Shown piece by piece: positions 40,427-43,436 of a stretch of 43,436 nucleotides of DNA (its first letter is position 1; the number at the start of each line of letters is the position of its first letter). Location: the NCBI GenBank assembly GCA_902552705.1, contig CACDHZ010000006.1, positions 1 through 43,436 of the forward strand, given 5' to 3'. This DNA is from an uncultured Pelagibacteraceae bacterium. GTDB taxonomy: Bacteria > Pseudomonadota > Alphaproteobacteria > Pelagibacterales > Pelagibacteraceae. The position numbers and the translations under genes were made by a program. The notes below the pieces were generated by a model, which saw nothing but the letters and a program-made list of their open reading frames with translations, had not been told where the DNA came from and made no database searches.

Positions 40427-41250
40427 TATAATTTTATTTCTACATTTTGAATATTTGAAACGGGTCCTTTCATATGGACACTGTTTTTTTTATCTATTGA
40501 GATTGTAAGCTTTCCTAGACTAAACTGAATTTCTGTAACTTTTTCTATTAGACCATTAATGTTACCCGCAACAGCTGTTGCACAAGCAGCAGTACCACAA
40601 GCTTTAGTTAGTCCAGCACCTCTTTCCCAAACTTTAACTTTTATTAAATTTTTTTTTAAAACTGTTGCAAGAGTTACATTACATCTTTCAGGAAATAATT
40701 CAGAGTTTTCAATTTTTGGTCCAATATTATTTATGTCAAAATCATCAATATCATTTACAAAAAATATTATATGTGGGTTGCCAACATTTATTGCAGTACC
40801 ACCAATATGTTTATTGTTATTTTTATCTGAAATTTCAATTTCAAGGTTTTTAGTATCCATTTCTTTATTTAATGGAATTTCATTCCATTTAGTTTTTGGA
40901 ATACCAATTTCTGTTTCTACTAAGTTATCTCCTAAAATCTTTGATTTTAATATTCCTGCAGAAGTCCAAAGAATTATTTCTTTTTTTTTATTTTCTTTAG
41001 CTAATAAGTCGGCAACACATCTTGTACCATTACCACAAGCGCCTGAAATGCTACCATCCGAATTATAGAACTCTAAACCAGCATCTATTTTTCTATTTTT
41101 TTTAATTAAAATCAATTGATCACATCCAATGTAGTTTCGATCACATATTCTGATTATTTGATCTTTCTTTAAATCTAAATTTTGATTTCTTTGATCAATG
41201 ATTATAAAATCATTGCCTAATCCATCCATTTTAAAAGCTTTAATATACAT
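40426..41250 (-). CDS. dapF: Diaminopimelate epimerase
   Basis: 274 residues with both active-site Cys: Cys72 (ACGNGTRC) and Cys218 (KACGTAAC), plus the MDGLGNDFIIID start. It converts LL- to meso-diaminopimelate for lysine and peptidoglycan. It is divergent from ffh and leads the dapF-ftsY operon. Confidence 0.97.
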   Translation of the reverse strand: MYIKAFKMDGLGNDFIIIDQRNQNLDLKKDQIIRICDRNYIGCDQLILIKKNRKIDAGLEFYNSDGSISGACGNGTRCVADLLAKENKKKEIILWTSAGILKSKILGDNLVETEIGIPKTKWNEIPLNKEMDTKNLEIEISDKNNNKHIGGTAINVGNPHIIFFVNDIDDFDINNIGPKIENSELFPERCNVTLATVLKKNLIKVKVWERGAGLTKACGTAACATAVAGNINGLIEKVTEIQFSLGKLTISIDKKNSVHMKGPVSNIQNVEIKL

Positions 41251-41272
41251 ATATAGTTATTTAACTTATTTA

Positions 41273-41300
41273 TTGACTTTTTGAACCTCTATTATATTTT
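41273..41300 (+). promoter_or_regulatory. Putative promoter of the ffh leader
   Basis: TTGACT (41273-41278), 16 bases, TATTTT (41295-41300); other -10 choices (TATATT at 41293) give short spacing. Initiation near 41307 would start the transcript at the first hairpin of the structured segment. Confidence 0.4.
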
Positions 41301-41306
41301 GTTGCC

Positions 41307-41391
41307 GTTTCCGCAAAAACGTTAAATTTGCGGTGTCTTTGGAAACAAAGAGATCGACACTAGTCAGCGAGGGTTCGCCCACTAGTGCGAT
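41307..41391 (+). ncRNA. Candidate structured RNA / 5' leader of ffh
   Basis: Three consecutive foldable elements. (1) CCGCAAA (41311-41317) with TTTGCGG (41327-41333). (2) TCTTTG (41336-41341), a GAAA tetraloop, and CAAAGA (41346-41351). (3) A long stem: ATCG (41353-41356), a bulged A, CACTAGT (41358-41364), paired with ACTAGTG (41381-41387) and CGAT (41388-41391), and inside it GCGA/TCGC closing a GGGT loop. GTTTCC/GGAAAC (41307-41312, 41341-41346) offers an alternative fold that competes with (1) and (2). It ends 20 bases before the ffh ATG. I recognise no known RNA family; it is not a tRNA and lacks the SRP RNA core. Confidence 0.55.
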
Positions 41392-41411
41392 TACTGCTGT
41401 GTGAAATAAAT

Positions 41412-42770
41412 ATGTTTGAAAATTTAACAAGTAAATTTGAAGAAATTTTTTCTTCTTTAAAAAAAGCCCCATCACTTGATGAAAAACAAGTTGATGAAGG
41501 ACTGATTGGTATTAGACAAGCTCTTTTAGAAGCTGATGTATCCCTTGAAGTAGCAAAAAATTTTATATCAAAAGTAAAACCTAAGGTTATTGGGCAGGAG
41601 ATTATAAGATCAACTTCTCCAGGTGACATGGTTGTTAAAATTGTCCATGATGAATTAGTAAGTTTTTTAGGAGATAGTAATGTCGACATAAATTTAAATG
41701 CTGTGCCACCAGTTTCAATGATGCTAGTAGGCCTTCAAGGTTCTGGTAAAACAACAACTACTGCAAAATTAGCAAAGTATTTAGAAAAAAATAAAAAAAA
41801 GAAAATCATGATGGCTAGTCTAGATATTTATAGACCAGCTGCACAAGAACAACTAAAGACTCTTGGAGAACAAAATAGTATTTTAACTTTACCCGTTATT
41901 GAAGGACAATTACCCGTAGACATCTGCAGAAGAGCAGTTAGTGCAGCAAATCTTAATGGCGCTGAGATTATATTATTTGATACAGCAGGAAGAACACAAA
42001 TCGATATTCAAATGATGAGTGAAATTAAACAGATTGAAAGTGTAGTAAATCCTACAGAAATATTTTTAGTCGCTGACTCTCTGACAGGACAAGTAGCAGC
42101 AGAAGTAGCCAAGGAATTTAAAAATACTGTAAATTTAACTGGTATTGTTTTAACTAGAGCAGATGGTGATGCTAGAGGTGGTGCAGCAGTGAGTATGAAA
42201 TATGTTTCTCAAGTCCCTATCAAATTTTTAGGGGTAGGAGAAAAAATAGACAATTTAGAAGTTTTTCATCCAGAAAGGATCGCAAATAGGATTCTTGGAA
42301 TGGGAGATATCGTATCTCTTGTTGAAAAAGCTGCAGAGGATCTTGGTGAAGAAAATTTAAAAAAAGCTGAAGAAAATTTAAAAAAAGGACAATTTTCTAT
42401 GGAAGATTATTTAGCACAATTAAAACAAATGAAAAAAATGGGTGGTATAGAAGGAATAATGTCATTCATGCCAGGCGTTTCCAAGATGAAATCACAAATG
42501 GATGCTGCCGGAATTGATGAAAAGATTATTACAGCAAATGAAGCAATAATTTTATCCATGACAAAAAAAGAAAGAGAGAATCCTAAACTTATTAATGGAT
42601 CAAGAAAAAAAAGAATTGCTAATGGCTCTGGAACAGATACAGCCACTATCAATAAATTGTTGAAACAATTTAAAATGATGTCTGAAATGATGAAGAAAAT
42701 GTCTAAGGGAAATCTGAAAGGTATGTCTGACAAAGGAATACCTCCAGAGCTATTAAATCAACTTAAATAA
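41412..42770 (+). CDS. ffh: Signal recognition particle protein Ffh
   Basis: 452 residues from ATG 41412 (MFENLTSKFEEIF, the family start); an in-frame GTG at 41385 would add nine non-family residues inside the leader structure. G1 GLQGSGKTT (107-115), DIYRPAAQEQL, DTAGRTQ, TRADGDARGG, then the Met-rich M domain ending MMKKMSKGNLKGM. It binds SRP RNA and signal sequences at the ribosome. rpsP follows after 15 bases. Confidence 0.97.
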   Translation: MFENLTSKFEEIFSSLKKAPSLDEKQVDEGLIGIRQALLEADVSLEVAKNFISKVKPKVIGQEIIRSTSPGDMVVKIVHDELVSFLGDSNVDINLNAVPPVSMMLVGLQGSGKTTTTAKLAKYLEKNKKKKIMMASLDIYRPAAQEQLKTLGEQNSILTLPVIEGQLPVDICRRAVSAANLNGAEIILFDTAGRTQIDIQMMSEIKQIESVVNPTEIFLVADSLTGQVAAEVAKEFKNTVNLTGIVLTRADGDARGGAAVSMKYVSQVPIKFLGVGEKIDNLEVFHPERIANRILGMGDIVSLVEKAAEDLGEENLKKAEENLKKGQFSMEDYLAQLKQMKKMGGIEGIMSFMPGVSKMKSQMDAAGIDEKIITANEAIILSMTKKERENPKLINGSRKKRIANGSGTDTATINKLLKQFKMMSEMMKKMSKGNLKGMSDKGIPPELLNQLK

Positions 42771-42785: not shown

Positions 42786-43436
42786 ATGTTAAAATTAAGA
42801 TTATCAAGAGGTGGAACAAAAAAAAGGCCCGTATATAAAATGGTTGTTGCAGATAGCCGTTTTGCAAGAGACGGAAGATTTATTGAAAAAGTAGGTTTCT
42901 TTAATCCTCTTTTACCTAAAGATAAAAAAGAAAGAATAGGATTGGAAGAGGAAAGAATTAAATATTGGTTAGGTCAAGGGGCTCAGCCAACAACAAGAGT
43001 TGCTAGAATTTTAGGTGAAAATAAATTGATGGCAATGCCAGAAAATGGCAACAATCCTAATAAAGCAATTCCTAAAAAAGAAAGAAAAAAAGCAGAAGCT
43101 CCTAAAGAAGATACACCTAAGGCAGAAGCTCCTAAGGCAGAAGCTCCTAAGGCAGAAGCTCCTAAGGCAGAAGCTCCTAAAGCGGATGCACCAAAAAAAG
43201 CTGAGGCTCCTAAGACAGAAGCTCCTAAAGCGGATGCACCAAAAAAAGCTGAGGCTCCTAAGACAGAAGCTCCTAAAGCGGATGCACCAAAAAAAGCTGA
43301 GGCTCCTAAGACAGAAGCTCCTAAAGCGGATGCACCAAAAAAAGCTGAGGCTCCTAAGACAGAAGCTCCTAAAGCGGATGCACCAAAAAAAGCTGAGGCT
43401 CCTAAGACAGAAGCTCCTAAAGCGGATGCACCAAAA
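42786..43436 (+). CDS. rpsP: 30S ribosomal protein S16 with long repeat tail, cut by window end
   Basis: 217 codons without a stop. Residues 1-80 are a normal S16 ([42 protein letters not shown]). An AGGAG site sits 5 bases before the ATG. From about residue 95 it becomes a Lys/Ala/Pro/Glu tail made of PKAEA and then [16 protein letters not shown] repeats that continue to the window end. Alphaproteobacterial S16 often has a short acidic/alanine tail; this one is already longer than the domain itself. Confidence 0.95.
43116..43436 (+). repeat. Coding tandem repeats in rpsP (4 x 15 nt, then 5+ x 48 nt)
   Basis: Four identical 15-nt units (43116-43175), then five identical 48-nt units starting at 43176, 43224, 43272, 43320 and 43368, and a 21-nt partial unit to the window end. 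All are in frame. Each 48-nt unit contains an A7 run. Confidence 0.97.

Follow-up and report, generated by a model that had tools for sequence, protein, structure and literature searches.

Autoregulatory leaders of ribosomal protein (r-protein) operons, such as those of S4, S15 and L20, are well known. As for the trmD operon, a 2024 review (PMC10931766) states that information on its regulation is lacking. The other described RNA that matters here is the ffh motif (Rfam RF01793), which Meyer et al. (2009; PMC2704228) reported in 'Cand. P. ubique' and other Alphaproteobacteria. In the excerpted text of that paper, the motif is a single bulged hairpin with two conserved cytosines, its transcript is detected in metatranscriptomes and regulation of ffh is suggested as its possible role. 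Passages of other published work name the RNA as the ffh leader RNA in Bartonella and list RF01793 in a table for Mesorhizobium. Rfam types the family as an sRNA, with a model that covers 52 positions only.

Here, we analyse a copy of this motif in a 43,436-nt stretch of DNA from an uncultured Pelagibacteraceae bacterium (contig CACDHZ010000006.1, hereafter the window) and compare it with its relatives in SAR11 and across the Alphaproteobacteria, including an order that appears to have lost the signal recognition particle (SRP) and has kept the motif in front of an r-protein gene.

Architecture of the predicted ffh-rpsP leader

The segment of ~105 nt that precedes ffh in the window (41305..41411; all features are on the forward strand unless stated otherwise) is conserved across SAR11. 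An earlier note on this DNA had presented it as an undescribed RNA, a description ruled out by the Rfam search, in which RF01793 matches 41343..41396 (hairpin 3 and flanks) at 54.4 bits for a gathering score of 35 (E 9.6e-8), and by its publication in 2009 (PMC2704228). The segment scores above the gathering threshold, contains a bulged hairpin with a covarying stem and the two cytosines, and precedes ffh; it is, practically beyond doubt, a member of the family. On the other side of the leader, dapF is found on the opposite strand, while ffh (41412..42770, with its ATG at 41412; TIGR00959, 554.5 bits vs a cut-off of 473.2) and then rpsP, which encodes S16 (42786..43436, extending past the window end; TIGR00002, 96.7 bits vs a cut-off of 45.3), follow on the same strand. 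The S16 of the window has a long C-terminal tail with (KAEAPK/KADAPK)-type repeats (43100-43436), which continues beyond the window end.

Three adjacent stems, one of them with a GAAA loop, are present as the earlier note had described them. Hairpin 1 (41311..41333) pairs CCGCAAA (41311-41317) with TTTGCGG (41327-41333), and hairpin 2 (41336..41351) pairs TCTTTG (41336-41341) with CAAAGA (41346-41351) across the GAAA loop. Hairpin 3 is composed of ATCG (41353-41356), a bulged A, CACTAGT (41358-41364) and an inner 4-bp helix (GCGA/TCGC), and its core (41358..41387) consists of 7 bp, a C.C mismatch (41365/41380), an A.C position (41366/41379) and 4 bp. The 7-bp stem, the bulged A and the inner helix all stand, but the outer 4-bp helix that the same description included (41353-41356 / 41388-41391) is poorly kept in relatives (84% of cells paired, with zero compensatory changes) and was dropped as a conserved feature.

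The piece 41305-41396 has a minimum free energy of -33.7 kcal/mol vs a mean of -20.1 for shuffled sequences (z -4.37), and none of 200 dinucleotide shuffles folds as low. Equally good folding was found in 4 of 3770 sampled 92-nt pieces from both strands of the 43-kb window, two of which are the leader locus itself, one per strand, and two of which lie opposite the rpsP repeat tail (43092-43229). The GC content of the leader segment is 48% vs 30% for the whole window, and the window's own minimum-energy fold contains hairpin 1.

Upstream, a predicted promoter (41273..41300) consists of TTGACT, a 16-nt spacer and TATTTT, with a transcript start predicted at ~41306-41308. A scan of the promoter pattern returned three sites vs 1.5 in shuffles. 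TTGAC occurs within 105 nt upstream of the motif in 131/131 sequences (63 from SAR11, 58 from other Alphaproteobacteria and 10 from the SRP-less order, many of them related) vs 4/129 in a control stretch of coding region, and TANNNT lies 16-18 nt from it in 49/63, 27/58 and 0/10 of these groups, respectively. This conserved placement predicts that transcription begins near 41306, which would make the element a 5' untranslated leader. It precedes an operon with r-protein genes, its inclusion in the transcript being predicted from the promoter element and from the published transcript reports, and the segment is very probably an operon leader. No terminator-like site was found in 41150-41500, so the segment does not qualify as a transcription attenuator.

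Conservation and covariation

Two alignments were used. The SAR11 alignment holds 55 of 63 unique leaders drawn from 89 loci, eight near-identical rows having been excluded, and its main-family rows come mostly from the best-scoring RF01793 matches among those listed; the class-wide alignment holds 91 of 94 alphaproteobacterial sequences. Across the 55 SAR11 leaders, hairpins 1-3 are paired in 97.7% of cells, vs 92.5% in shuffled alignments and at most 45% when the pairing is slid. Hairpin 1 is paired in 94% of cells, with a double change in one pair (G-C to A-U in 5/55), and each of the four pairs scored in hairpin 2 shows compensatory changes on both sides. None of 500 shuffles matched the covariation score or the number of doubly changed cells, while 61/500 matched the number of pairs with double changes and 432/500 the number of pair types.

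Hairpin 3 covaries class-wide. In the 91 sequences, double changes are found in 11 of 12 pairs, a number reached by 0/500 shuffles, as is the covariation score, and the pair types were matched by 7/500. The C.C mismatch is kept in 90/91. The position beside it is A.C in 57 sequences, A.A in 10, C-G in 10, U-A in 5, G.U in 4, G-C in 3 and something else in 2; when the 5' letter is other than A, a standard pair is formed in 22 of 23 sequences, and the 2x2 loop of the published model is therefore more aptly described as a C.C mismatch (1x1) with a weak or real pair beside it.

The earlier note was right to propose a structured RNA that lies between a possible promoter and ffh, and the covariation in SAR11 leaders and in hairpin 3 across the class supports it. 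What is new is that hairpins 1 and 2, which lie beyond the Rfam model, are conserved in SAR11. They were rejected as class-wide features, being weak outside SAR11: partly stable in other Alphaproteobacteria (mean z -1.02, n=57) and not clearly so in the SRP-less order (mean z -0.66, n=10).

A possible two-state switch in SAR11

That the leader might switch between folds had also been suggested, with GTTTCC and GGAAAC as the competing pair. The idea is right in spirit, with another partner: this pairing is complete in just 9/55 SAR11 leaders (at least five of six pairs in 15/55) and was discarded, the stretch before the start codon being better conserved than the hairpin-2 loop. In its place, the 5' strand of hairpin 1 (GTTTCCGCA, 41307..41315) is predicted to pair, when hairpin 1 is open, with TGTGTGAAAT (41398..41407), which ends 4 nt before the ffh ATG (RNAduplex -7.8 kcal/mol). 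The corresponding pairing can be formed by ACUUCCAA with UUGGAAGU in locus L053, by UAUUCC/GGAAUA in L106 and by CUUCC/GGAAG in L006 and L111; L155 has an altered 3' element.

The 3' strand of hairpin 1 can in turn extend hairpin 2 (41331..41356) through CGGU (41331-41334) and AUCG (41353-41356), which excludes hairpin 1. RNAalifold favours this extended form, which is paired in 100% of cells and has one compensatory pair (C-G in 50 and U-A in 5 SAR11 leaders). Alignment column 45 can therefore pair with column 24 or with column 70, and the three columns change jointly from G-C-G to A-U-A in five sequences (L053, L099-L102), from two genera only.

In a swap test with 25 representatives, the 5' and 3' pieces of the same leader bind with -8.77 kcal/mol vs -7.15 for taxon-swapped pieces (z -5.1, p 5e-5); with 15 representatives, the result is z -3.4 (p 5.5e-4). 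The arms of hairpin 1, used as a benchmark, give z -5.4 (n=25) and -3.6 (n=15). When the pieces were subdivided (n=25), neither the piece upstream of the arm (p 0.48) nor the arm alone (p 0.10) was significant, while the piece with CC, minus the remaining arm, was weakly significant (p 0.02). Of the three negative controls, one reached z -2.35 (p 0.01). Of ten relatives folded, L091 and L099 adopt the alternative state. Hairpin 1 thus shares both of its strands with other helices: the 5' strand has another conserved partner just ahead of the ffh start and the 3' strand can extend hairpin 2, which makes a two-state switch possible. Since hairpins 1 and 2 are weak in the SRP-less order and elsewhere, such a switch may be specific to SAR11.

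Genes downstream of the motif

RF01793 is found over the cut-off in 268/297 Pelagibacterales genomes, and in 65/241 genomes of a class-wide sample at E up to 0.001, 53 of them over the cut-off. Genomes listed with a match have one copy each. The motif also lies upstream of ffh in records titled Robiginitomaculum (L208; Maricaulales; 31 bits), Emcibacteraceae (L181) and Rhodothalassium (L205), groups that the excerpted text of the 2009 paper (PMC2704228) does not name as carriers.

In a set of 150 loci, from which a copy of the window (L048) was excluded and in which one genome (G093) was entered twice, the next gene is ffh in 146, rpsP in three and a contig end interrupts one. In the class-wide sample, 61/64 motif-bearing genomes have rpsP on the same strand at a distance of 35-5060 nt downstream of the motif, the other three having a split contig or no rpsP match (among the 65 class matches, G439 was placed from coordinates only). 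Because ffh sits between the motif and rpsP in 58 of the 61 placed genomes, placement outside the f41 order described below cannot separate Ffh from S16. In SAR11 genome G001 (locus L253), the order by tblastn is ffh-rpsP-trmD-rplS, and one distant query gave no RimM match in the rpsP-trmD interval. Among named rpsP loci, 76/80 match model R1 at 22.7 bits or more; of the four without such a match, L187 and L228 have a short upstream stretch, and L198 and L206 carry ffh. The R1 model was also used to look for rRNA mimicry, and across ten genomes it returned its own locus in 10/10 and one further, weak match in one genome (E 4.2), which gives no convincing sign of such mimicry.

An order that keeps the motif without a detected SRP

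All three rpsP-adjacent loci of the 150-locus set come from family f41. The order in question is represented by 18 genomes from three genera (G335, G440, G520, G535-G549), six of which are at least 90% complete, and its loci (L061, L127, L141, L160-L177) are from marine Alphaproteobacteria. In none of the 18 genomes did an SRP54 GTPase (Ffh or FtsY) exceed the cut-off, one sub-threshold match covering 41 model positions, while 14/14 controls were detected, and no SRP RNA was found at E up to 0.001 (0/18) with a model that detects 11/14 controls. The f41 order thus shows an apparent complete loss of SRP. An assignment of this order to HIMB59 was considered and dropped, since its relatives are labelled PS1 clade, OCS116 cluster or Hyphomicrobiales.

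The motif is nonetheless over the Rfam cut-off in 14/18 genomes of the f41 order, one of the four without it being 96% complete. In all 14, the reading frame that follows begins like S16, at 59-66 nt past the hairpin-3 core position (in three also by tblastn), and the distance from the leader to the S16 match downstream, measured in three genomes, is 35-40 nt. Five named f41-type loci (L173-L177, which carry the PS1 clade, OCS116 cluster or Hyphomicrobiales labels) have the motif followed by rpsP, with no ffh match in the available stretch. In L174, the order is rpsP-rimM-trmD-rplS, each protein scoring above its own NCBIfam cut-off, with dapF upstream on the other strand; the same rpsP-rimM-trmD-rplS order is found in L256 (tblastn).

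Among the best-ranked matches listed from openly licensed papers, there was no report of the rpsP link or of SRP loss in the f41 order. A passage of PMC3264578 lists the signal recognition particle protein among Pelagibacter features absent from Rickettsiales, so SRP absence in some Alphaproteobacteria is not in itself a new idea. Elsewhere in the class sample, where up to 12 candidates per genome were scored, four genomes that are 97-100% complete (G353 and G452 of f59, G356 of f62 and G406 of f112) gave no SRP54 match, and SRP54 matches are weak in G339 and G489.

What the leader may regulate

The earlier note had raised the possibility that Ffh, which is an RNA-binding protein, autoregulates by binding to the leader and repressing ffh, a role hinted at in 2009 (the excerpted paper, PMC2704228, allows for it) and in keeping with the position of ffh directly downstream in nearly all loci. 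What speaks against it is the f41 order, where the motif persists directly upstream of rpsP in most genomes and no SRP GTPase exceeds the cut-off; in addition, no SRP RNA model matches the window at the gathering score. Autoregulation by Ffh is therefore disfavoured and, as sole function of the leader, unlikely. In contrast, an operon leader with a regulator other than Ffh is the simplest account, because no ffh or ftsY was found in the f41 order while the leader stays, and since the motif is kept before rpsP in relatives without a detected ffh, it likely controls the r-protein operon rather than Ffh alone. That the regulator is not Ffh, or not only Ffh, is accordingly a reading we lean towards, with the proviso that f41 is one lineage and that four of its 18 genomes have no motif match.

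Two further explanations have less to do with the downstream genes. The leader could be cleaved off and act in trans as a processed small RNA, the gene that follows being incidental, as the sRNA type given by Rfam would have it and as the transcript reports might suggest (metatranscriptomes in the excerpted PMC2704228, the Bartonella ffh leader RNA and the Mesorhizobium table, each seen in passages). This explanation sits poorly with one match per genome among those listed, with a motif that adjoins ffh or rpsP in 149/150 loci and precedes rpsP in every motif-bearing f41 genome, and with the lack of terminator-like sites around the leader, and we regard it as improbable. Alternatively, a ligand-free 5' hairpin could protect the transcript or enhance its translation, in agreement with its location at the predicted transcript start and its high folding stability. 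The C.C mismatch, kept in all but one of the sequences, points to recognition instead of mere stability, which makes a purely structural role quite improbable.

Our tentatively favoured reading is therefore that the segment is the predicted leader of an ffh-rpsP-trmD-rplS operon, built around the known hairpin 3, and that it may regulate this r-protein operon in cis through a product other than Ffh, most likely S16. S16 ranks first among the candidate sensors, if tentatively, as an RNA-binding r-protein whose gene is the constant member downstream; L19, RimM and TrmD are the alternatives. In the mechanism that we propose, S16 or another product of the operon would bind hairpin 3, the part conserved class-wide, and in SAR11 this would tip the leader towards the state in which the 5' strand pairs just ahead of the start codon and hairpin 2 takes its extended form. 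Such a pairing would hide the ribosome-binding region, whereas hairpin 1 would form when the product is scarce, leaving that region open. The broader claim, that the ffh motif supplies the trmD r-protein operon with its long-missing autoregulatory leader and has S16 as candidate signal, is at present doubtful.

A leader that occurs in many Alphaproteobacteria and stays on rpsP after ffh has apparently gone gives the question of how the trmD operon is regulated a defined RNA and a few candidate proteins to test, and it turns an orphan motif from 2009 away from the gene that named it. Because ffh has apparently been deleted in nature, the two candidate targets can be told apart with no need for a mutant.

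Comparison with known systems

SRP RNA (RF00169) is linked to Ffh by function yet is separate from the leader. The possibility that the leader is the SRP RNA itself was considered, since the window's own incomplete genome has no RF00169 match, and was rejected because 50/58 SAR11 genomes have a separate RF00169 match. In the window, RF01793 is the sole gathering-score match. SRP RNA in SAR11 is often below the Rfam gathering score, with 35/58 genomes over the cut-off vs 50/58 at E up to 0.001.

With RF01793 as described, the window leader shares hairpin 3, the two conserved cytosines and the place before ffh, but it adds, for SAR11, two hairpins, the conserved TTGAC element and the 5'-3' pairing, and its operon target is here putatively reassigned. 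As for the leaders of the S4, S15 and L20 type, they resemble the present case in that an r-protein operon is preceded by a structured 5' leader that may switch at the ribosome-binding site. Here, however, the first gene is usually ffh rather than an r-protein gene, and no convincing rRNA mimicry was seen with model R1.
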